Assembly (NCBI RefSeq): GCF_001404985.1
Contig: NZ_JRLF01000012.1
Span: 186,001 to 250,000 of the forward strand
DNA: 64,000 bases
Direction of reading: 5' to 3'
Origin: Flavobacterium aquidurense
GTDB taxonomy: Bacteria; Bacteroidota; Bacteroidia; Flavobacteriales; Flavobacteriaceae
The position numbers and the translations under genes are program-made. Numbering within the stretch: the stretch's first letter is position 1; each line of letters opens with the position of its first letter. Shown piece after piece: positions 4,231 to 35,823 of the stretch. A model generated the notes under the pieces. It searched no databases and was not told the DNA's origin. It saw only the letters and a list, made by a program, of their open reading frames with translations.

Positions 4231-4329
4231 GAGTGTCCTAGCCCCGACAGAAGTGAAAATCCTTTTGTGGCGGTCCCGAGGCTTCGGGAGTTACAAAAGA
4301 TTGCAACGGATAGCGGGATTAGCTCCTGA
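4231..4329 (+). ncRNA. structured repeat element, copy B (GCCCCG/CGGG type)
   Basis: The left side TAGCCCCGACAGAAGTG and right side GGATAGCGGGATTAG can pair through CCCG/CGGG plus flanking pairs. The centre is a hairpin: CTTTTGT (4260-4266) with ACAAAAG (4293-4299), and an inner CCCGA-GGCT-TCGGG. It shares AG-nAG and GGATAGC with the elements at 28561, 44964 and 53373 but carries the core GGG and CCC on opposite sides. G-U pairs favour the plus strand slightly. It lies between two minus-strand genes and ends next to the HPP stop codon. Possibly the Flavo-1 RNA motif; untested. Confidence 0.55.
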
Positions 4330-26478: not shown

Positions 26479-27243
26479 TTATCGAATCTCACCAACAAAT
26501 TCTTCAATTTTCCCGGAACCGCTTTCGCTTAAATGTTTGATAAAAGCACTGCCAATAATCGCTCCTTTTGCAAATTTAGTTGCCTGATTAAAGGTCTCTT
26601 TGTTTGAAATACCGAAACCAATAATTTGTGGATTTTTAAGGTTCATGTTTGAGATTCTTTCAAAATAATCTTCCTGAACGTTTCCAAAACCTGATTGAGA
26701 TCCCGTAACACTAGCAGAACTTACCATATATATGAATCCGTTTGAAACGCTGTCGATAAAACGAATGCGTTCGTCAGATGTTTGCGGTGTGATCAAAAAC
26801 ACATTTATTAAGCCGTATTTTTCGAAAATTGCTTTGTATTCGTCTGCATAAACATCAACTGGTAAATCAGGAATAATTAATCCGTCGATACCAATTTCAG
26901 CACATTTTTTACAAAATTCTTCCACTCCGTATTGTAACATCGGGTTAAAATATCCCATAATAATCAACGGAATTTTTACGCTTTCGCGGATATTCTTCAA
27001 CTGATCAAAAAGAATTTGAGTCGTCATTCCGTTATGAAGCGCCTGAGTTGAACTTGCCTGAATAGTTGGTCCATCTGCCAAAGGATCACTAAAAGGCAAA
27101 CCAATTTCGATTAAGTCAACACCATTTTTTTCTAAATCCTGAATGATTTGAACGGTGTCATTTAAATTAGGATATCCAGCCGAAAAATAAATCGAAAGTA
27201 TCTTTTTATCTTCTTGTAATTTTTGAGTTATTCTATTCATCAT
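26479..27243 (-). CDS. trpA: tryptophan synthase alpha chain
   Basis: A 254-residue TIM-barrel subunit that cleaves indole-3-glycerol phosphate to indole and glyceraldehyde-3-phosphate. It shows the catalytic Glu in LIEIGLPFSDPLADGPTIQ (residue ~42), catalytic Asp in GLIIPDLP (residue ~130), and the phosphate-binding end GFGISNKE and GAIIGSAFI. It is the last gene of the trp series but is split from trpB by two unrelated genes and repeats. Two start codons, ATG ATG, are adjacent; either may be used. Confidence 0.97.
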   Translation of the reverse strand: MMNRITQKLQEDKKILSIYFSAGYPNLNDTVQIIQDLEKNGVDLIEIGLPFSDPLADGPTIQASSTQALHNGMTTQILFDQLKNIRESVKIPLIIMGYFNPMLQYGVEEFCKKCAEIGIDGLIIPDLPVDVYADEYKAIFEKYGLINVFLITPQTSDERIRFIDSVSNGFIYMVSSASVTGSQSGFGNVQEDYFERISNMNLKNPQIIGFGISNKETFNQATKFAKGAIIGSAFIKHLSESGSGKIEEFVGEIR

Positions 27244-27330
27244 TTTTATTTTTTATCCTAACAGGTTTCCAAAACTTGTTAAGTATGTTATTATTTAGCC
27301 AGAGGTTAAAAAGATTGTTTCAGATTTTTT

Positions 27331-27417
27331 ATTTCACGCAGATTTGGCAGACTAAGCAGATTTAGTAAAAATAAATCTGCGCAAATCAGCTTAAATCCAT
27401 TTAAATCTGCGTGAAAT
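27331..27417. repeat. CACGCAGATTT inverted repeat
   Basis: ATTTCACGCAGATTT (27331-27345) and AAATCTGCGTGAAAT (27403-27417) are perfect 15-bp inverse copies around internal CTGC/GCAG-type units. Related text (AAATCTGCG, CCGCTTAATC) occurs at about 53628-53660 and 54526-54690. It lies in the trpA gap. No gene is inside. Confidence 0.65.
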
Positions 27418-27464
27418 AATTTGCAACAAGAATCAGTAACATCATTCTAATCTGTGGTATCTTT

Positions 27465-28202
27465 TTAATTTTTTATAATCTTACTTGTCCAATTATCATT
27501 TTGTTTTTCTAGTAATAACAATCCGGAATCTGAATCATTCATTTGAGCAACCAATTCGCCTTTGTTATTCCAGAAAGCACTTTGTCCAGCGGAAGGTGAA
27601 CCCCAGGATTCACCACTGAAATTCGACATCAAAATATTCATTTGATGTTTTTGAGCATAGTTTTGCAAATCTCTGTATGCATTCGGAATTCCGTTTGGCG
27701 AAAAGAAAATACTGGCAATATAAATATCAGTTTCTCTTTTAGAGGCTTTTTGCGGATGCAGCGGATTATCAATATCGGCACAAATAGCAAATGAAATGTT
27801 TTGATTTTCAATCTTAATCATCGGATTATAATCAAAAGAAGGTTGAAAAAATTCCTCTTCTCCTTCATGTAAAAACTGCTTTGTGTAGATTTCAATTCTA
27901 TTATCCGGAAAAATTATAAATTCCCCAATAAATATTTCCAAATCAATTTGAATTGGAGCTCCGGCAACAATAATAATATTATTTTCAAAAGCCAATTTTT
28001 TCAGATGATCTAAACGTGAATCATCTTTTTCAAAAGCTAATTTTTGAGCATGTTCTCTTTCATAACCTGTAATAGACATTTCAGGAAATGCAATTAATTG
28101 CGCTCCGTTTTGCACAGCCAATTCTACAAGACGATAATGATCTAATAAATTAGTTTTAATGTCTCCTCTTGTTGGTTTTGTTTGTGCTGCAGCTAAAATC
28201 AT
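27465..28202 (-). CDS. carbon-nitrogen hydrolase family protein
   Basis: A 245-residue nitrilase-superfamily amidase. The E-K-C triad is visible as Glu in IAFPEMSITGYE, Lys in YTKQFLHEGEEEFF, and Cys in ISFAICADIDNP. Such enzymes hydrolyse amide or nitrile C-N bonds; the substrate is not identifiable. It is embedded in the trp gene row between trpB and trpA. With the gamma-glutamylcyclotransferase-like gene 9 bp upstream it forms a two-gene insertion. Confidence 0.9.
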   Translation of the reverse strand: MILAAAQTKPTRGDIKTNLLDHYRLVELAVQNGAQLIAFPEMSITGYEREHAQKLAFEKDDSRLDHLKKLAFENNIIIVAGAPIQIDLEIFIGEFIIFPDNRIEIYTKQFLHEGEEEFFQPSFDYNPMIKIENQNISFAICADIDNPLHPQKASKRETDIYIASIFFSPNGIPNAYRDLQNYAQKHQMNILMSNFSGESWGSPSAGQSAFWNNKGELVAQMNDSDSGLLLLEKQNDNWTSKIIKN

Positions 28203-28211
28203 ATCAACTTT

Positions 28212-28532
28212 TTATTTATTTTCTATATAAACCCAGGCCACTTTCCCAGACTTCAATGTTACCTGAACTCTTTTGTATGAATTCGATTCGAATATATCTA
28301 CTTTAGCTAAATCTGAAGCCAAAATATTAAAAGCAACACCATGTATAGGATCTGAAGAATCTGCGCTGGGTACTGCTACAACATAGTCTGCCATTCCAAA
28401 TTCTTCTTCAATTTGCAGACTTTTTAGTTTGTAACCCAGCAGCTCATCACGAGTTCCGGTTAGCACTTTATTAAAAAGCTGCATCTGAATTTGTTTTGAT
28501 CTTAATGTTCCGTATGAGAATAACTTTTCCAT
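28212..28532 (-). CDS. gamma-glutamylcyclotransferase-like (AIG2 family) protein
   Basis: A 106-residue protein with the family nucleotide- or substrate-loop motif FSYGTLRSKQIQ at the start and the segment VDIFESNSYKRVQVTL, whose Glu is in the place of the catalytic acid. It may release pyroglutamate from a gamma-glutamyl compound. It is 9 bp upstream of the C-N hydrolase gene, an enzyme type that also works on amide bonds. Together they may be a small salvage pair unrelated to tryptophan. Confidence 0.85.
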   Translation of the reverse strand: MEKLFSYGTLRSKQIQMQLFNKVLTGTRDELLGYKLKSLQIEEEFGMADYVVAVPSADSSDPIHGVAFNILASDLAKVDIFESNSYKRVQVTLKSGKVAWVYIENK

Positions 28533-28560
28533 AAATTACTATTTTTCTCGTTATTTGTTT

Positions 28561-28667
28561 GCGTTAGGGATGGGAGCGGCATCGCCCAATTTAGAAAAAC
28601 ATGGCTTTTTAGCCATAGTTTTTGTTAATTGGGAATATAGCAGACAGCCCGACCGAAGGGAACGCCC
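28561..28667 (+). ncRNA. structured repeat element, copy A1
   Basis: Closing pairs GCGTT (28561-28565) with AACGC (28661-28665). Core GGGAT and AGCCCGACC sides. Inner stem CCCAATT with AATTGGG, and a hairpin AAAAACATGGC-6-GCCATAGTTTTT. It lies between trpB and the next gene, on the strand opposite to both. Homologous to copy A2 at 53373-53479, with compensatory differences. A transcript is inferred. Confidence 0.6.
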
Positions 28668-28676
28668 AAATTAATC

Positions 28677-29858
28677 TTATAATTTAAAATAATCAATATA
28701 ATTGTCTAAATCTTTATCGCCACGGCCAGAAAGACTGATAACTACGATATCAGTTGGTTTAAATTTCTTTTGGTCTAAAACGGCAAAAGCATGCGCGCTT
28801 TCAATCGCCGGAATAATTCCTTCTAGTTTTGTCAATTGTAAACCAGCATTCATTGCATCATCATCTGTAACCGAAAAGAATTCTCCACGACCGGTTTGTG
28901 CCAAATGTGCGTGCATTGGTCCAACTCCGGGGTAATCCAAACCTGCAGAAATTGAATAGGGTTCTGTAATTTGCCCGTCAGGAGTTTGCATTAAAAGGGT
29001 TTTACAACCATGAATAACGCCTACTTTTCCTAATTTACTTGTTGCTGCACTATGACCGCTATCAACGCCTTTTCCGGCTGCTTCTACGGCAATAATTCCA
29101 ACTTCGGGTTCGTGCAAAAAGTGATAATATGTTCCAGCTGCATTACTTCCGCCACCAATACAAGCGACTACATAATCAGGATTTTCACGTCCTTCTTTTT
29201 CTTTTAACTGCCATTTTATTTCCTCAGATATTACACTCTGAAAACGGGTAACCATATCCGGATATGGATGTGGACCAATTGCAGATCCAATAATATAATG
29301 TGTGTCAACAGGATTATTAATCCAATCGCGAATGGCTTCATTTGTAGCATCTTTTAGGGTTCTTGAACCTGAAAGTGCGGGACGAACCTCAGCGCCCAAC
29401 ATTTTCATTCGAGCCACGTTTGGTGCCTGACGTGCAATGTCGATTTCGCCCATATACACGATACATTCCATTCCCATAAGAGCACAAACAGTAGCAGTTG
29501 CCACGCCATGTTGACCAGCTCCTGTTTCGGCGATAATTCTTTTTTTACCCAAACGTTTCGCTACTAATATTTGTCCAATTGTATTGTTTACTTTATGTGC
29601 TCCGGTATGGTTTAAGTCTTCTCTTTTTAAGTAAACTTTGGTATTGTATTTTTCAGATAAACGTTTTGCAAAATAAAGCGGACTTGGACGCCCAACGTAA
29701 TCTTTTAGTAATTGGTCAAACTCGGCTTTAAAATCAGGCTCGCTTGTTATTTTTAAATAATTCTGGCGTAATTCTTCTACATTTGGATACAGCATTTCAG
29801 GAATGTAAGCTCCTCCAAATTCTCCGTAATATCCTTTTTCGTTGACGTTAAAATTCAT
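28677..29858 (-). CDS. trpB: tryptophan synthase beta chain
   Basis: A 393-residue PLP enzyme that joins indole and serine to tryptophan. Features: the PLP lysine in HTGAHKVNNTIGQ (residue ~83), the catalytic Glu in IAETGAGQHGVATA, the phosphate-binding GGGSNAAG, and the C-terminal SLSGRGDKD. The length is typical of TrpB1. It follows trpF by 12 bp and is the last gene of the compact trpD-C-F-B part. Confidence 0.98.
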   Translation of the reverse strand: MNFNVNEKGYYGEFGGAYIPEMLYPNVEELRQNYLKITSEPDFKAEFDQLLKDYVGRPSPLYFAKRLSEKYNTKVYLKREDLNHTGAHKVNNTIGQILVAKRLGKKRIIAETGAGQHGVATATVCALMGMECIVYMGEIDIARQAPNVARMKMLGAEVRPALSGSRTLKDATNEAIRDWINNPVDTHYIIGSAIGPHPYPDMVTRFQSVISEEIKWQLKEKEGRENPDYVVACIGGGSNAAGTYYHFLHEPEVGIIAVEAAGKGVDSGHSAATSKLGKVGVIHGCKTLLMQTPDGQITEPYSISAGLDYPGVGPMHAHLAQTGRGEFFSVTDDDAMNAGLQLTKLEGIIPAIESAHAFAVLDQKKFKPTDIVVISLSGRGDKDLDNYIDYFKL

Positions 29859-29870
29859 TTTTTCGAAATT

Positions 29871-30494
29871 TTAAAGGTTGACAATTTCAAGTTTTCGTTT
29901 GAAATTGGTTAATAGGTTTTTGTTTTTTAATCCGGGCTCAATTTCAAATCTACTATTTACATCAATGGCGTAAACCGGTAATTTTAGATTTTTAATCGCT
30001 GCTATTTCTTCTATTCCAATACCACCACTTAAGAAAAAGGGCTTATCAGATTTATAATTTTTTAATATTTTCCAATCGAAAATTGTTCCGTTTCCTCCCG
30101 GTAATTTTCCTTTGGTATCAAACAGAAAATAATCACAGACATTTTCAAAAGGCTTTATACTTTCGAAATCAAAATTGTCTCCAACTGAAAACACTTTTAT
30201 GATTTCGACTTCCTTATCGATTTTATTTTTTAATTCCTCACAATATTCAACAGATTCATCGCCGTGTAACTGAATGGCCTGTAAATTGTGTTCTTTTATT
30301 TTGACTATGATATTCTCAATAGATTCATGTACAAAAACACCAGTTTTTTTAATTGTTTTTATAAGTTCTGGAATCTTTCCGGTAAAATATCGAGCAGATT
30401 TCTCATAGAAAATAAATCCCATATAATCGGGTAGGAGTGCGCCTACTTCGAGAATATTCTCAGGATATTTCATGCCGCATATTTTGAGTTTCAT
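29871..30494 (-). CDS. trpF: phosphoribosylanthranilate isomerase
   Basis: A 207-residue TIM-barrel enzyme that performs the Amadori rearrangement in tryptophan synthesis. The catalytic Cys is in LKICGMKYPENI (residue 5-6), the QLHGDE motif is near residue 75, and the catalytic Asp is in YFLFDTKGKLPGGNG. It ends with FLSGGIG and IDVNSRFE. The gap to trpC upstream is 84 bp and holds an imperfect hairpin made of CTTTAAGCTT-like units. Confidence 0.97.
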   Translation of the reverse strand: MKLKICGMKYPENILEVGALLPDYMGFIFYEKSARYFTGKIPELIKTIKKTGVFVHESIENIIVKIKEHNLQAIQLHGDESVEYCEELKNKIDKEVEIIKVFSVGDNFDFESIKPFENVCDYFLFDTKGKLPGGNGTIFDWKILKNYKSDKPFFLSGGIGIEEIAAIKNLKLPVYAIDVNSRFEIEPGLKNKNLLTNFKRKLEIVNL

Positions 30495-30578
30495 TTTTTT
30501 TGATGCTTTAAGCTTTAAGCTGTAGGCTTTAGGCTAAATTAGTAATGTTAAGAAGGGGTATTGCTTATAGCTTAAAGC

Positions 30579-31358
30579 CTAGAGCTGACTAATAAAGTCA
30601 ATAGCTGCTTTTCCGGCGTTGTCGGTTTTCATGAAGTTTTCTCCAATTAAGAATCCGTTGTAACCGTAAGGTCTAAGTTCTGAAATGGCTTCTATTGATG
30701 AGATTCCGCTTTCGGATACTTTTACAAAATCATCCGGAATTTGTGATGCCAGTTGTTTACTGAAATCCAGACTTACTTCAAAAGTTTTCAAGTTTCTGTT
30801 GTTTACACCAATCATATCTAAACTAGGCATAATCGATTTTTCTAATTCTTCCTGATTGTGAACTTCAAGTAAAACTTCTAAACCCAATTTTTTTGCAAAT
30901 TCTGATAACAATTTGATTTCTTCGCGTGTTAAAACCGCAGCAATCAATAAAATTAAATCGGCGCCAAAAGCTTTAGCTTCGAGAATCTGGTATTCATCGA
31001 CAATAAATTCTTTTCGCAATAGCGGAATATTTACACTCGCTCTTGCCAAAAGTAAATCATCAAGTGAACCTCCAAAATATTTTCCGTCCGTTAAAACAGA
31101 AATTCCGCAAGCGCCTGCATTTTCGTAACCTTTCACAACTTCTTCAACCGTAAAACTATGATTGATTACTGATTTTGAAGGCGAACGGCGTTTGTGTTCA
31201 GCGATAATTCCGGTTGAACTTGTTTTTAGTTTCTGACTCAAAGAAATCGTTTGTCTTTCGAAAAAAACAGAACTTTCCAACTGCGAAACCGGAATGATCG
31301 ATTTTTTAAGAACGACTTCTCGTTGTTTATCAAATATTATTTTATCTAAAATATTCAT
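30579..31358 (-). CDS. trpC: indole-3-glycerol phosphate synthase
   Basis: A 259-residue TIM-barrel enzyme closing the indole ring. Motifs: IIAEHKRRSPSKSVI (catalytic Glu and Lys), ISVLTDGKYFGGS, PLLRKEFIVDEYQI, LLEVHNQEE, IGVNNRNLKTF and VSESGI, in order. It is monofunctional; trpF is a separate gene downstream. 74 bp separate it from trpD. Confidence 0.98.
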   Translation of the reverse strand: MNILDKIIFDKQREVVLKKSIIPVSQLESSVFFERQTISLSQKLKTSSTGIIAEHKRRSPSKSVINHSFTVEEVVKGYENAGACGISVLTDGKYFGGSLDDLLLARASVNIPLLRKEFIVDEYQILEAKAFGADLILLIAAVLTREEIKLLSEFAKKLGLEVLLEVHNQEELEKSIMPSLDMIGVNNRNLKTFEVSLDFSKQLASQIPDDFVKVSESGISSIEAISELRPYGYNGFLIGENFMKTDNAGKAAIDFISQL

Positions 31359-31432
31359 GGCTTTTGTTTTGCCACAAAGTCACAAAGACGCAAAGTTAAT
31401 TTGTGCTAATTCGTGAAATTTGTGTTTGTTTC

Positions 31433-32425
31433 TTATTTGCTTAATTCTTGTAATGTCTGCAATGCTTTTAATCCCTTTCCTGAGAACAGACTCTCTTTTG
31501 CCAATTCAAAACCTTCGAGCGGAGAACACTTTGTAACCGTTGCGATTGCCATTGCAGCATTGGCTAAAACTACATTATTCTGTGCTTCAGTTCCTTTTCC
31601 TGAAATGATATTGGTAAACATTTCTGCCGACTCTTCGATTGTTTTTCCACCTTCGATTTCGCTTTGAGATAAAAGTCTAACGCCAAAATCTGAAGAGTTT
31701 AACATTCCTTCCATATGTGATGTGATCGTTTTGGTTGGACCGGTTAAGGAGATTTCGTCATATCCGTCAAGCGAATGTAAAATCGTGAAATTGATATCCG
31801 TATTTTGATATAAATAAGCATACATTCTAGCTAATTCAAGATTGAAAACACCTACTAATTGATTTTGTGGAAACGAAGGATTCACCATTGGTCCCAACAT
31901 ATTAAAGAAGGTTTTTACCGCTAATTCTTTACGGATTGGTCCAACGTTTTTCATAGCAGGGTGAAATAGGGGAGCGTGCAAGACGCAAATTCCGGCTTTA
32001 TCTATACATTTTTCTAAAAATGAAGGATCATTACTGAATTTAATTCCCATTTTTTCCATTACGTTGCTTGATCCTGAAATCGATGAAACACCGTAATTTC
32101 CGTGTTTGGCTACTTTTATTCCTGCTCCTGCAGATATAAACGAAGCTAAAGTTGAGATATTGAAAGTGTCTTTTCCGTCACCGCCTGTCCCGCATAAATC
32201 GATTGTATTGTAAGCTGATAAATCAACACGAACGCACAATTCTAATAATGCTTCACGAAATCCGGAAAGTTCATCAATTGTAATGCTTCGCATCATAAAC
32301 ACGGTCAAAAATGCCGAAATCTGACTTGGATTATATTGACCGCTCGAAATATTAATCAATACGTTTTTAGCTTCTTCTTTAGAAAGCACTTCGTGGTTGA
32401 TTAATTTATTTAGTATATTTTTCAT
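31433..32425 (-). CDS. trpD: anthranilate phosphoribosyltransferase
   Basis: A 330-residue homodimeric enzyme transferring phosphoribose from PRPP to anthranilate. The PRPP loop CGTGGDGKDTFNIST lies near residue 77-91, followed by KHGNYGVSS and FNMLGPMVNP. It is not fused with trpG, which is a separate gene upstream past a GNAT gene. About 57 bp of repeat text separate it from that GNAT gene. Confidence 0.98.
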   Translation of the reverse strand: MKNILNKLINHEVLSKEEAKNVLINISSGQYNPSQISAFLTVFMMRSITIDELSGFREALLELCVRVDLSAYNTIDLCGTGGDGKDTFNISTLASFISAGAGIKVAKHGNYGVSSISGSSNVMEKMGIKFSNDPSFLEKCIDKAGICVLHAPLFHPAMKNVGPIRKELAVKTFFNMLGPMVNPSFPQNQLVGVFNLELARMYAYLYQNTDINFTILHSLDGYDEISLTGPTKTITSHMEGMLNSSDFGVRLLSQSEIEGGKTIEESAEMFTNIISGKGTEAQNNVVLANAAMAIATVTKCSPLEGFELAKESLFSGKGLKALQTLQELSK

Positions 32426-32427
32426 TT

Positions 32428-32480
32428 TTTTAAGGTTCTAAGTTGCTAGGCTTTTTTCTGTAAACTGAGACTGTAAACTG
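32428..32480. repeat. direct repeat downstream of the GNAT gene (R1)
   Basis: Contains TTCTAAGTTGCTAGG, then TTTTTTCTGTAAACTGAGACTGTAAACTG. The region 32888-32940 on the other side of the GNAT gene (R2) has the same order: TTCTAAGTTGCTAAGG, then TTTTTTCTGAGACTGAATACTGTAAACT. The two are direct repeats flanking that gene. Confidence 0.6.
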
Positions 32481-32482
32481 CT

Positions 32483-32887
32483 TTAATGTTCATTTCCCTG
32501 ATAAATCCACATGGGCTCTGTTTTTCCGGCTCTTTCAAATCCGTTTTTCTTGTAGAAATCAACAGATCTACCGTCAGCGGTTAACATTTGCATATGAAAG
32601 TGACTGTATTTTTCCTGCATTTTATCTACAATCAATTTCCCAATTCCTTTTCCCTGATAATCTGGAAGCACTAATAAATGCGGATAATAAACCGTTAAAA
32701 ATCCATCAGAAATTGCATTCCCAAGTCCGACTAATTTTTTTCCTTCCCAAGCCGTAATTAAGGTTTCTGAATTTAAAAGAGCATTATATAATTCGTTTGG
32801 CTTATTTGCTGAACTCCATTCGTTTGCTTTGTATAAAACCAATATATCTTCAAGATTGATTTCTTTAGTTTCTGAAATAGTTATCAT
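32483..32887 (-). CDS. GNAT family N-acetyltransferase inside the trp operon
   Basis: A 134-residue acetyl-CoA dependent transferase. The CoA-binding motif reads LVLPDYQGKGIGKLIVDKMQ, with the preceding beta strand VYYPHL and a late FYKKNGFERAG segment. The substrate is unknown. It is placed between trpG and trpD and bordered on both sides by matching direct repeats, so it looks like a later insertion in the operon rather than a pathway enzyme. Confidence 0.9.
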   Translation of the reverse strand: MITISETKEINLEDILVLYKANEWSSANKPNELYNALLNSETLITAWEGKKLVGLGNAISDGFLTVYYPHLLVLPDYQGKGIGKLIVDKMQEKYSHFHMQMLTADGRSVDFYKKNGFERAGKTEPMWIYQGNEH

Positions 32888-32938
32888 TTTTTGAGATTCT
32901 AAGTTGCTAAGGTTTTTTCTGAGACTGAATACTGTAAA

Positions 32939-33505
32939 CTAGCTCTTTATCCAGTTCTCTAAAATCAATTTCCCTTTTGGCGTAAGCACGCTTTCCGGAT
33001 GAAACTGAACGCCTCTTACATCATAAGTTTTATGTCTTAGTGACATAATTTGTCCGTTTTCATCGATTGAAGTTGCTTCCAGAACATCTGGTAAATTTGA
33101 ATCAACAACCCATGAATGATAACGTCCTACTTCGAATTCATTTCCTAAACCTTCAAACAAAATTTCATCTGAAACTACTGTTTTTACGTTTGTTGCAACA
33201 CCATGATATACTTTATCAAGGTTAGAAAGTGTTCCGCCAAAAACTTCTCCAATGGCTTGTTGTCCCAAACAAACGCCTAAAATGCTTTTTGTTGGAGCAT
33301 ATTTTGCGATTACTGCTTTTAATAAACCTGCTTCATCCGGAATTCCGGGACCTGGGGAAAGAAGTATTTTATCGAAAGCAGCGATTTCATCAATTTCGAA
33401 TTCGTCGTTTCTGTAAACCGTAACCTCGCAATTTAAATCCTCTAAATAGTGCACTAAATTATAAGTGAAACTATCGTAATTGTCTATAACTAATATTTTT
33501 TTCAT
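32939..33505 (-). CDS. trpG: anthranilate synthase glutamine amidotransferase
   Basis: A 188-residue class I amidotransferase giving ammonia to TrpE. The catalytic triad is Cys79 (ILGVCLGQQAIGE) and the His/Glu of VQFHPESVLTP near the C-terminus; it also has LLSPGPGIP. The start is the ATG at 33505 (MKKILVIDNYDSF), since the upstream part of the frame is repeat-like. It could also serve aminodeoxychorismate synthase (pabA role), as in some bacteria, but the location argues for trp. Confidence 0.96.
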   Translation of the reverse strand: MKKILVIDNYDSFTYNLVHYLEDLNCEVTVYRNDEFEIDEIAAFDKILLSPGPGIPDEAGLLKAVIAKYAPTKSILGVCLGQQAIGEVFGGTLSNLDKVYHGVATNVKTVVSDEILFEGLGNEFEVGRYHSWVVDSNLPDVLEATSIDENGQIMSLRHKTYDVRGVQFHPESVLTPKGKLILENWIKS

Positions 33506-33554
33506 TTTGTTTTTATTTTGTTTCAAGTTTTCTTTTGTTTCATGTTTCAAGTTC

Positions 33555-33593
33555 TGTAACTGAAAACTGTAACTGAAAACTGTAACTGAAAAC
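33555..33593. repeat. tandem 13-bp repeat upstream of trpG
   Basis: Three perfect copies of TGTAACTGAAAAC lie side by side. Two near-copies (TGTGACTGAAAAC and TGCGACTGAAAAC) lie at 34101-34126, ending at the trpE stop codon. Both are preceded by TTTCAAG-type text. The two tracts flank the lipoprotein gene, much like R1 and R2 flank the GNAT gene. Confidence 0.75.
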
Positions 33594-33601
33594 TATTTTT
33601 T

Positions 33602-34051
33602 TTACTTTTCTCGAACGTATTTTTCTGTAATAATGCGATCGATTCCTAATTTCTCTACTTTTTCAATTCCTTTTTGAGTTAAAGTGTCATTTTTAATTTT
33701 TACCACAAATTCAAATTTTCCATTTTCCCATTGTCTGTTATTGAAGAACTCTAAATTCTCAGTATAAATACTATCTTTTAAAGTATATTTTCCGCCTCCG
33801 CCAAAAAATACTGCATTTGTTGAATCTTTACCATTATTTAAATCATGATTGAAAAATGCAAAATGAGTGTTATTTATAATTTTTATCATCTTCGTTTTTG
33901 GATTGAAAGTCGAGAACGTTGAATCTTTTTCAGTGGTTTCTGCTGATATCAGACGCCAGGTTCCAACCAACGGAATTACTGTTGTTTCTTTCTTAGATTC
34001 ACATGATACTAAAAGAACGAAAGCAAAAGCAATAGCAATTAAATTTTTCAT
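33602..34051 (-). CDS. small lipoprotein inside the trp operon
   Basis: A 149-residue lipoprotein. The signal peptide has the lipobox LLVSC, cleaved before Cys17. The mature part begins with a polar linker and then VGTWRLISAE, the start of a lipocalin-like barrel, with alternating beta strands and FFGGGGKYTL. No known function. It has no obvious link to tryptophan. It is placed between trpE and trpG and flanked by 13-bp repeat tracts, which suggests insertion. Confidence 0.75.
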   Translation of the reverse strand: MKNLIAIAFAFVLLVSCESKKETTVIPLVGTWRLISAETTEKDSTFSTFNPKTKMIKIINNTHFAFFNHDLNNGKDSTNAVFFGGGGKYTLKDSIYTENLEFFNNRQWENGKFEFVVKIKNDTLTQKGIEKVEKLGIDRIITEKYVREK

Positions 34052-34125
34052 AGGTTTTATGGTTTATTGTTTGTTTTGTTTCAAGTTTCAAGTTTGCAAC
34101 TGTGACTGAAAACTGCGACTGAAAA

Positions 34126-35526
34126 CTAAATTTTCTCCGCCATTTCAAGCGCTGTATTCAATGCTCTTAATTTATTATAAACTTCCTGCATTTCACTTTC
34201 TTCGTCAGAACTTGCTACGATTCCGGCTCCGGCCTGACAATGTAACTGATGGTTTTTGCTCAGGAATGTTCGAATCATAATCGCGTGATTAAAGTTGCCT
34301 TCAAAATCCATGAAACCAATTGCGCCTCCGTAAAAATTACGATTTGTTTTTTCGTAATCTTCTATTAATTGCATCGCTCTGTGTTTTGGAGCACCGCTTA
34401 AAGTACCCGCCGGAAAAGTATCTGCAACAACCTGCATTGTGGTTGCTTTTTCATGCAGATGGCCTGTAACTTTAGAAACCAAATGAATTACGTGCGAGAA
34501 AAATTGCACTTCTCTGTATTTTTCGACATTTACATCATGTCCGTTTCTACTTAAATCATTTCTGGCTAAGTCGACCAACATTACGTGTTCGCTGTTTTCT
34601 TTTTTATCCTCAGAAAGTTGTTTTGCTAAAACGGCATCACGCTCATCATTTCCGGTTCTTTTAAAAGTTCCGGCGATTGGGTGAATCTCAGCTTTTCTGT
34701 TTTTTACGATAATTTGTGCTTCGGGCGAAGAACCAAATATTTTGAAATCTCCATAATCAAAAAAGAATAAATATGGTGATGGATTGATACTTCTTAAAGC
34801 GCGGTAAACGTTAAATTCATCACCTTTGAAACCTTGTGTGAAACGACGTGATAATACCAATTGAAAAACGTCTCCACGGAAACAATGTTTTTTGGCTAAA
34901 GCTACATTGTGTTTAAATTCATCATCGGTTAAGTTAGAGAAACCTTCGCCTTCTTTAGAGAATTTATAAGATGCAATATTTCTGGATTGTAATAATTGTT
35001 CAATTTCCGAGATATTGTTTTTTCCATCTACACTATGACAAAAAATGTATGCTTCATTTTTGAAGTGATTTATGGCGATGATATTTTGATATACTGCATA
35101 AAACACATCCGGAATTAAAGTTGCACTATCTTTTTTAGCGATGGAAACCTTTTCGAAATAGCGAACTGCATCGTAAGAAATGTATCCGAATAAACCATTA
35201 TTAATGAATTTAAAATCGTTTTTCTCAGATTTAAACTGGCTCGAAAATTCCTGAATTACTTCTGGAATGTTTGTCGAAGAATCAATGTTAACCTGTGATG
35301 TTGTTCCATCAGGAAAAGTTTTTGATATGACTTCATTTTCGATTTTAATAGTAGCAATAGGGTTACAGCATATGTAGGAGAAACTATTATCATTTCCGTG
35401 ATAATCACTACTCTCTAATAATAAACTATTAGGGAATTTATCTCTGATTTTAAAATAAATACTTACCGGAGTAATTGTATCTGCCAGAATTTGTTTGTAA
35501 TGCGTGTTGAGTATAAATGGTTTCAA
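34126..35526 (-). CDS. trpE: anthranilate synthase component I
   Basis: A 466-residue chorismate-utilising enzyme making anthranilate with TrpG. N-terminal part has LLLESSDYH, the LLES feedback motif for tryptophan binding. The catalytic half shows LVLSRRFTQGF, NPSPYLFFFDYGDF, IAGTFKRTGNDERDAVLAK, FPAGTLSGAPKHRAM and YGGAIGF. The start is an unusual TTG (35524-35526), as no ATG in frame fits relatives. Expression should be limited by attenuation: a leader peptide with WWW and a terminator lie just upstream. Confidence 0.97.
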   Translation of the reverse strand: MKPFILNTHYKQILADTITPVSIYFKIRDKFPNSLLLESSDYHGNDNSFSYICCNPIATIKIENEVISKTFPDGTTSQVNIDSSTNIPEVIQEFSSQFKSEKNDFKFINNGLFGYISYDAVRYFEKVSIAKKDSATLIPDVFYAVYQNIIAINHFKNEAYIFCHSVDGKNNISEIEQLLQSRNIASYKFSKEGEGFSNLTDDEFKHNVALAKKHCFRGDVFQLVLSRRFTQGFKGDEFNVYRALRSINPSPYLFFFDYGDFKIFGSSPEAQIIVKNRKAEIHPIAGTFKRTGNDERDAVLAKQLSEDKKENSEHVMLVDLARNDLSRNGHDVNVEKYREVQFFSHVIHLVSKVTGHLHEKATTMQVVADTFPAGTLSGAPKHRAMQLIEDYEKTNRNFYGGAIGFMDFEGNFNHAIMIRTFLSKNHQLHCQAGAGIVASSDEESEMQEVYNKLRALNTALEMAEKI

Positions 35527-35572: not shown

Positions 35573-35607
35573 AAAAAAAAAAGGCTTGTCGTGATGACAA
35601 GCCTTTT
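35573..35607 (-). terminator. trp attenuator terminator
   Basis: Stem arms 35596-35607 and 35579-35590 (AAAAGGCTTGTC / GACAAGCCTTTT) with loop 35591-35595. Minus-strand transcripts then run into a U-tract (A-run 35573-35582). It lies between the leader peptide and trpE. An alternative pairing of its segments with the leader end (35636-35650) would prevent it. Confidence 0.88.
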
Positions 35608-35643
35608 ATATTTATAGTTTTACAATACCATAGGAAGCTTTGT

Positions 35644-35700
35644 TCACGACGTTTGACGTAAATTCTTCCACCACCAAGTATTGTTCATTATTGTTTTCAT
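35644..35700 (-). CDS. trpL: trp leader peptide with three consecutive Trp codons
   Basis: An 18-residue peptide, MKTIMNNTWWWKNLRQTS, with three TGG codons in a row at 35668-35676. Its stop codon overlaps the sequence GTCGTGA (35644-35650), which can pair with TCACGAC in the terminator loop and arm. When Trp-tRNA is scarce, the ribosome stalls on the Trp codons and leaves GTCGTGA free to form the antiterminator. When it reaches the stop codon it covers it and the terminator forms. A Bacteroidetes trp leader motif of this kind (Bacteroid-trp) is known; this fits it. Confidence 0.88.
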   Translation of the reverse strand: MKTIMNNTWWWKNLRQTS

Positions 35701-35717
35701 ATCTTATTTTTGATGTC

Positions 35718-35746
35718 ACAAATATATAAATGTAATTTGAATTACA
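35718..35746 (-). promoter_or_regulatory. trp promoter
   Basis: On the minus strand TTG (35744-35746), an 18-bp spacer and TATATTTG (35718-35725) match the Bacteroidetes consensus TTG-N17-23-TAnnTTTG. Transcription should start about 35712, 10-15 bases before the leader peptide ATG at 35700. Confidence 0.82.
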
Positions 35747-35823
35747 ATACATGATTTGTAAAAAAAATCTTTTAATAATCCATAAAATTGTTAAATTCTG
35801 TAAAATATTATTTGTTTAAAGGC

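Follow-up and report, generated by a model that had tools for sequence, protein, structure and literature searches.

The window, a stretch of 64,000 nucleotides of Flavobacterium aquidurense DNA, carries ahead of trpE an element by which a translating ribosome very probably controls transcription of the trp operon through attenuation (we put the probability at about 0.9). Its parts lie in place, they are conserved among relatives, and they include two competing helices that both covary. The element is a clear member of the known family RF01692 and is not new in kind. Of higher interest is a variant of the same trp chassis that likely senses lysine, which we found outside the window in related genomes. 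On the minus strand, from 35747 to 35573, the order of the trp element is promoter, leader open reading frame (ORF), hairpin over the ORF, and terminator, and its features and the genes that follow are these:

35719..35747, minus strand: whole Bacteroidota-type promoter (sequence and conserved position in relatives)
35747-35745, minus strand: TTG (-33) of the promoter (read from the sequence)
35726-35719, minus strand: -7 box TATATTTG (read from the sequence)
35644..35700, minus strand: leader peptide gene of 18 codons, MKTIMNNTWWWKNLRQTS, ending in TGA (sequence)
35668..35676, minus strand: three tandem Trp codons, the sensor (sequence)
35646-35644, minus strand: leader stop codon TGA (sequence)
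35623..35684, minus strand: hairpin P1, the Rfam consensus fold, over the Trp codons and the antiterminator arm (minimum free energy fold and Rfam alignment)
35637..35650, minus strand: antiterminator 5' arm GTCGTGAACAAAGC, which includes the stop codon (sequence; alignment for the GTCGTGA part)
35588..35602, minus strand: antiterminator 3' arm GCTTGTCATCACGAC, made of the terminator 5' arm, the loop, and the start of the 3' arm (sequence, shuffled-arm energies, alignment)
35573..35607, minus strand: intrinsic terminator AAAAGGCTTGTC-ATCAC-GACAAGCCTTTT with its U-run (sequence, fold, covariation)
35607-35579 and 35582-35573, minus strand: terminator hairpin and T10 (sequence and fold)
34126..35526, minus strand: trpE, anthranilate synthase component I, with a TTG start (NCBIfam)
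26479..33550, minus strand: trpG, trpD, trpC, trpF, trpB, and trpA, assigned by order, with non-trp genes between them (ORFs named by eye)

An earlier note, made from the letters of this stretch alone, had described a promoter, an 18-codon leader with WWW, a stop codon overlapping an antiterminator arm, and a terminator with a U-run, and each lies where it had been placed; the stop codon is inside the arm, and the U-run has ten U residues. The pairings proposed there are also correct in the sequence: GTCGTGA of the leader (35650-35644) is complementary to TCACGAC of the terminator (35594-35588), and ACAAAGC (35643-35637, with one bulged A) to GCTTGT (35602-35597). Its assignment to the Bacteroid-trp family is borne out by the Rfam search it had suggested, in which RF01692 matches 35720-35596 on the minus strand over the full model (1-131) with 73.7 bits against a gathering score of 49 (E 2.4e-7 for the window). 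A short leader ORF with tandem Trp codons and a position before trpE, the other marks of the family, are both present, and the Rfam model finds one copy in the organism's own genome. The minimum free energy fold of 35720-35573 (-34.2 kcal/mol, z -3.8) is reached by 0 of 200 shuffles and includes both the Rfam hairpin P1 and the terminator. The intrinsic terminator (35607-35573) lies between the leader ORF and the first gene, with 46 nt from the end of the U-run to the TTG start of trpE. The leader arm pairs with its own terminator at -17.3 kcal/mol, compared with a mean of -10.6 for shuffled arms, one of 100 of which is equally good.

The trpE product has TIGR00564 as its best NCBIfam match, at 439.5 bits and under the cut-off of 517.7, and trpB passes TIGR00263. 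The TTG start of trpE is identical in five of five hand-picked close relatives. Interspersed in the trp operon (26479-35526) are a lipoprotein-like ORF without a Pfam match (33602-34051) and a GNAT acetyltransferase (32483-32887), and between trpB and trpA we see by eye a gamma-glutamylcyclotransferase-like gene and a nitrilase-like gene. Elsewhere in the window, a Flavo-1 RNA (RF01705) lies at 4236-4324 on the plus strand, with 63.7 bits against a cut-off of 42.

The promoter follows the TAnnTTTG consensus given in the text of PMC9723704. In the window, the TTG starts 21 nt upstream of the -7 box, the distance in relatives being most often 22. Among the 135 loci filed for the window's family (f1), one of which (L099) is a Lys leader, 127 have TAnnTTTG no more than 45 nt ahead of the leader start codon. 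In 40 of these 127 (L039 among them) only 4-9 nt separate the -7 box from the start codon, and in 25 of the 40 a TTG stands exactly 22 nt upstream of the -7 TA. If transcription starts 5-7 nt past the -7 box, as we assume for this reading, these 40 leaders are predicted to be leaderless or nearly so; the window leader lies outside this short-spaced class, having 18 nt between TTTG and ATG, and its own transcription start is predicted near 35712.

A transcript from near 35712 would carry the 18-codon leader. With charged Trp-tRNA at hand, the ribosome would translate to the stop codon (35646-35644) and cover GTCGTGAACAAAGC; with this arm covered, the terminator at 35607-35573 would form and transcription would end before trpE. 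If charged Trp-tRNA runs short, a ribosome stalled at WWW (35676-35668) would open P1 and free the arm, which would pair with GCTTGTCATCACGAC once that is made and before the 3' arm of the terminator is complete, and trpE would be transcribed. We infer the stalling and the tryptophan response from the known mechanism of such attenuators. Folding of the nascent RNA is consistent with this scheme if the ribosome footprint is assumed to reach from -14 to +15 relative to the A-site codon. All seven arm bases are covered when the ribosome stands on the stop codon, and the nascent RNA to 35588 then folds without the antiterminator (-6.2 kcal/mol), while a ribosome at any of the Trp codons leaves the arm free, and the best nascent fold to 35588 is the antiterminator (-17.0 kcal/mol). 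Structure, covariation, and nascent folding with this footprint thus agree on an antiterminator that excludes the terminator and is free when the ribosome stands at the sensor codons.

The earlier note had held that the two folds exclude each other, which stands structurally, but in all computed states of the full-length RNA the terminator is the favored fold. Masking the Trp codons, as a stalled ribosome would, does not change this (-24.8 or -21.1 for the terminator versus -18.2 for the antiterminator), so the switch, if real, must be kinetic. Hairpin P1 is present in the full-length minimum free energy fold yet loses to the antiterminator in nascent RNA, which when untranslated prefers the antiterminator (-19.8) over P1. 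These computed folds lend no support to the idea that P1 acts as a brake when the RNA is untranslated.

The Rfam consensus ends inside the 5' arm of the terminator, and RF01692 has neither the terminator nor the antiterminator pairs. The antiterminator that the earlier note had drawn from a single sequence now has the backing of comparative data absent from that model. We aligned 148 leaders of the families f1, f11, and f12, with L099 as the one Lys leader among them. Pairing holds in 97.9% of cells for the terminator helix, which has double changes at 10 of 12 pairs, and in 94.2% of cells for the antiterminator GTCGTGA:TCACGAC, which has them at four of seven pairs (a count that covers the GTCGTGA part of the arm). 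Both helices lie above all slid controls, none of which exceeds 56.1% for the antiterminator, and at most three of 500 shuffles reach any of the measures. The main antiterminator double change is from G-C to A-U at the fourth base (CGTGA/CGTAA), and since the cells count sequences rather than events and this exchange separates families, the independent antiterminator changes are few. A further paired change occurs in L139, where CGCAA faces TTGCG in the terminator and the stop lies at +3, and in the f3 loci (L201-L217) the antiterminator seems by eye to be GGCAA with TTGCC instead of CGTGA with TCACG. The inner helix of P1 has moderate support, with 76.7% of cells paired in the same 148 leaders. 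In 119 of 135 f1 loci the last bases of the terminator loop are TCAC, which complement the leader arm and which the terminator's own stem does not need.

The leader arm motif is present in 130 of 135 f1 loci, and the stop codon lies inside it in 101 (L099 being one). In 26 of the 130 the stop lies 3-14 nt away from the kept motif (CGTGA, or CGCAA in L139) and in more than one reading frame, at +5 in 14 loci, at -9 in eight, and at -14, -8, -6, and +3 (L139) in one each. Because these 26 loci keep the motif with the stop elsewhere, the motif is kept for pairing, beyond serving as a stop codon. It is the RNA that holds the motif in place, and the stop is usually kept near it. Counting against a simple model are three f1 loci (L100, L101, and L102) with the stop 26-38 nt past the motif. 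With five f11 and f12 loci in which it lies 28-34 nt past (L153, L160, L165, L176, and L184), the simple model leaves eight far-stop leaders unexplained. The motif is absent in 16 of 213 loci (five f1, one f11, nine f3, and one f2).

Energies discriminate less well than covariation, and we preferred the covariation counts. When each arm was paired with its terminator and compared with shuffled arms, at most five of 100 shuffles were as good in 105 of 135 f1 loci, 15 of 30 f11 loci, and 5 of 30 f12 loci; in the remaining families the arm was better in 7 of 17 f3 loci and in the single f2 locus was not (0/1). Where terminators are GC-rich, energies of shuffled arms discriminate poorly, and the test is weak in f11, f12, and f3. 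Swapping arms between clades gave a mixed result: f12 arms reach -20.7 with f11 terminators and -19.5 with their own, and f3 arms -16.4 with f12 terminators and -15.5 with their own.

Within the genus, RF01692 occurs at E <=0.001 in 97 of 150 genomes; the corresponding counts are 184 of 249 for the family, 45 of 392 across the phylum, and 58 of 99, 41 of 151, and 17 of 151 for the families of G491, G383, and G503. Over the family cut-off, these counts become 95, 163, and 41 for genus, family, and phylum and 51, 28, and 7 for the three other families. Among trp genes, the one nearest behind the leader is trpE in 131 of 135 f1 loci, trpB in 30 of 30 f12 and 29 of 30 f11 loci, and trpD in 16 of 17 f3 loci. 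A run of three Trp codons is found in 132 of 135 f1 loci, and the distance from the last Trp to the stop is seven codons in 100 of 134 f1 trp leaders. Within the window's genus, L100, L101, and L102 are trp leaders before trpB, and L226 (G075), a trp leader before trpB that RF01692 does not list, looks like a fourth beside them.

One sub-threshold RF01692 match, L099 (46.2 bits against 49), precedes an aspartokinase gene, and its leader is MNTWIIKKGKKQYLRRTS. We built two covariance models whose E-values are rough: R1 from 42 trp loci, covering codon 16 to the U-run only and leaving out the sensor codons, and R2 from 29 Lys leaders only. Among the matches listed for R1 in 111 genomes of the genus (up to E 0.007), eight sites with E <1e-4 and one at 2.1e-4 are lysC leaders. 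The genus thus holds nine Lys leaders of 18 codons before lysC (L219-L225, L228, and L099), and the remaining R1 sites below 1e-4, compared by eye, are RF01692 matches apart from L226. In the family of G426, R1 matched 32 of 197 genomes, and the 30 loci read comprise 16 Lys leaders before lysC, five trp leaders, and nine plain terminators. The weak R1 matches L227 and L229-L238 in the genus and L287, L288, and L290-L296 in the G426 family have no sensor leader by eye and look like plain terminators.

In place of WWW, the 25 Lys leaders found with R1 carry mostly KKGKK, and no search fixed these sensor codons. Codons 8, 10, and 11 encode Lys in all 25, and codon 7 does so in 23; codon 9 encodes G in 19, A in four, S in one, and V in one, with KKGKK, KKAKK, and KKSKK all seen in the G426 family. 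L14 and R15 occur in 25 of 25, compared with 84 and 85 of the 97 f1 trp leaders of 18 codons, all 97 of which have S18 and for which the choice of start favors W at codon 9. An exact-pattern scan of one genome per species over 84,980 species gave 28 contigs, 27 of them with Lys leaders whose lysC starts within 400 nt: nine from Myroides, three from Paenimyroides, four from Flavobacterium, one from a Flavobacteriaceae metagenome-assembled genome (MAG), seven from Chryseobacterium, and three from Elizabethkingia. The pattern fixes codons 8-11 and TCGTGA, letters that thereby gain no independent support, and leaves the terminator unfixed. The other match, L243, lies in a coding region of a Legionellaceae MAG without a leader and was dropped.

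Together, R1 and the pattern scan yield 41 distinct Lys leaders, some of them near-identical. All 41 have an ATG-opened ORF of 18 codons with seven codons from the last Lys to the stop (nine have a further in-frame ATG upstream), and all 41 have CGTGA with TC[AG]CG in the terminator, the CGTGA partly by construction. The fold of one Lys leader has -42.8 kcal/mol (z -6.4), and its P1 overlaps the last sensor codons. The LysC of L223 passes TIGR00657 and best matches the model of lysine-sensitive aspartokinase 3, at 396.6 bits and below the cut-off of 455. Among 21 named contigs whose lysC is complete, nine have as their next ORF one that opens with a shared lysA-like stretch; the full protein of L262, the one tested, passes TIGR01048 (diaminopimelate decarboxylase), and two 50-residue LysA fragments gave no match in Pfam. 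Outside the 41, L300 in another genus of the family is a further Lys-type leader before lysC, with KKDKK and an apparent TTG start. In the window's family, R2 finds trp leaders again in nearly all loci read. It also turned up trp leaders with WW only in genomes without a listed RF01692 match (L330, L333, L335, and L338), and its matches L340, L341, and L343 are WW leaders as well.

No such lysine leader was found in the window's own genome. The exact pattern TCGTGA...TGTC...TCACGACA occurs there only at the trp site, the best two of five R1 matches are the trp site and a plain terminator (L237, E 0.006), and three aspartokinase-like genes, 26-32% identical to LysC, have no such leader in the 350 nt upstream. 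Before a thrA-like gene of bifunctional aspartokinase length in this genome, L297 (G000:C7) is a short ORF, MKSNSAKYQSTMTAQTGVAIAATTISTTTTTTP, with many codons for Thr and Ile, and a hairpin scan there gave no U-tailed terminator. On nine Lys-leader loci tested, no Rfam family reaches its cut-off: RF01692 stops at 46.2 bits against 49 on L099 and has no match up to E 0.1 on the other eight, and the suhB matches on these loci fall below the suhB cut-off. The Lys leaders have Lys codons and precede lysC, where RF01692 elements have tandem Trp codons and precede a trp gene; they seem to work in the manner of RF01692 without being members. Among the accessible literature on lysine leader peptides, no title or abstract opening describes such an attenuator in Bacteroidota.

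The Lys leaders look like a lysine attenuator that is built on the trp chassis and has not been described before. We consider it probable, as one joint proposition, that the window's element is one cassette of a portable attenuator chassis whose sensor codons were exchanged, KKxKK for WWW giving a leader-peptide attenuator that responds to lysine and is missing from Rfam 15; that codon 12 to the U-run is kept together with the geometry (last sensor codon at 11, then seven codons, and the stop at codon 19 inside the antiterminator arm); and that the element controls lysC, or in some genomes lysC-lysA, in Flavobacteriaceae, Chryseobacterium, and Elizabethkingia. Convergence, in which any attenuator with its stop in the antiterminator arm would come to look alike, seems unlikely to us. 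It would draw on the need of both types for a stop near the arm, for P1, and for a U-tailed hairpin, and on codons 14-15 (TTACGT), which double as P1 bases. The cross-searches speak against it, however, as R1, built from trp loci only, finds the genus Lys leaders at 44-68 bits, and R2, built from Lys leaders only, in turn recovers the trp leader of the window (76.3 bits, E 1.3e-11). The invariance of L14 and R15 in the 25 Lys leaders, at positions outside R1, likewise speaks against convergence.

For the trp element itself, the leader might chiefly affect how well the trpE message is translated or how stable it is, rather than termination. Bacteroidota mRNAs lack a Shine-Dalgarno sequence according to the text of PMC7366714, which makes another coupling conceivable, and the terminator persists in every full-length state computed. 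We nonetheless regard such a mode of action as very unlikely, given a covarying hairpin followed by T that is kept in three aligned families, an antiterminator that competes with exactly this hairpin, and a trpE start that lies 46 nt beyond the end of the U-run. It is less probable still, to the point of being hardly credible, that the RNA works as a Trp-binding riboswitch or is read by a trans-acting protein, the WWW leader being incidental. Rfam does give the element as a structured leader, but the constancy of WWW across f1 and of the seven-codon distance from the last Trp to the stop would then be surprising. The same scaffold with Lys codons precedes lysC, which makes sense only if codons are read. 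Attenuation of transcription by the translating ribosome remains our preferred account of the trp element.

The value of the window's element on its own is modest: a textbook switch with a tested antiterminator that the public model is missing. Its lysine sister, if it works as the anatomy says, would be a natural codon-swap experiment, with the same design and the same distances applied to another amino acid. The requirements of an attenuator could then be tested through exchanges of one cassette. It would also supply a regulator for lysine biosynthesis in these bacteria and a ready-made amino-acid sensor design for Bacteroidota.

In other bacteria, lysC is controlled by the lysine riboswitch (L box). 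The Lys leaders differ from it in carrying Lys codons in a short ORF, and the nine Lys-leader loci tested reach no Rfam cut-off. In Flavobacterium psychrophilum, leader-peptide attenuators have been inferred, with hisG and pheA named among conserved 5' elements (PMC9723704); attenuation before amino-acid operons in a Flavobacterium is thus shared with our case, whereas lysC, aspartokinase, and lysine are absent from the main text of that study. SEP5 of Sinorhizobium, for which a leader-peptide role has been suggested, has six codons for Thr and three for Lys (PMC10117765); it is similar to the Lys leaders as a short Lys-codon ORF in the 5' UTR of a gene that its authors link to the threonine/lysine pathway. 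It differs in belonging to another phylum, in mixing Thr and Lys codons, in being conserved only in Sinorhizobium according to its authors, and in a description, as given in the text of PMC10117765, that includes no terminator chassis. The leaderless trp leader trpL/rnTrpL of Sinorhizobium meliloti, treated in the same article (PMC10117765), is likewise a Trp leader attenuator, and its leaderless start resembles the 40 of 127 f1 leaders predicted to be nearly leaderless; the window leader, in contrast, is not short-spaced.

The closest known system is RF01692 Bacteroid-trp itself (Weinberg et al. 2010, PMC2864571), with a Trp leader peptide before the trp operon in Bacteroidota. Its model lacks the terminator and antiterminator pairs, both of which are added and tested here. 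The E. coli trp leader has two tandem Trp codons and the window leader three; a further difference is that the antiterminator arm of the window's element includes the leader stop codon, so that a ribosome there would block the arm directly. The two attenuators are alike in their Trp-rich leader peptide, in a terminator and an antiterminator that exclude each other, and in the use of the ribosome as the sensor (PMC6414381, and general background).
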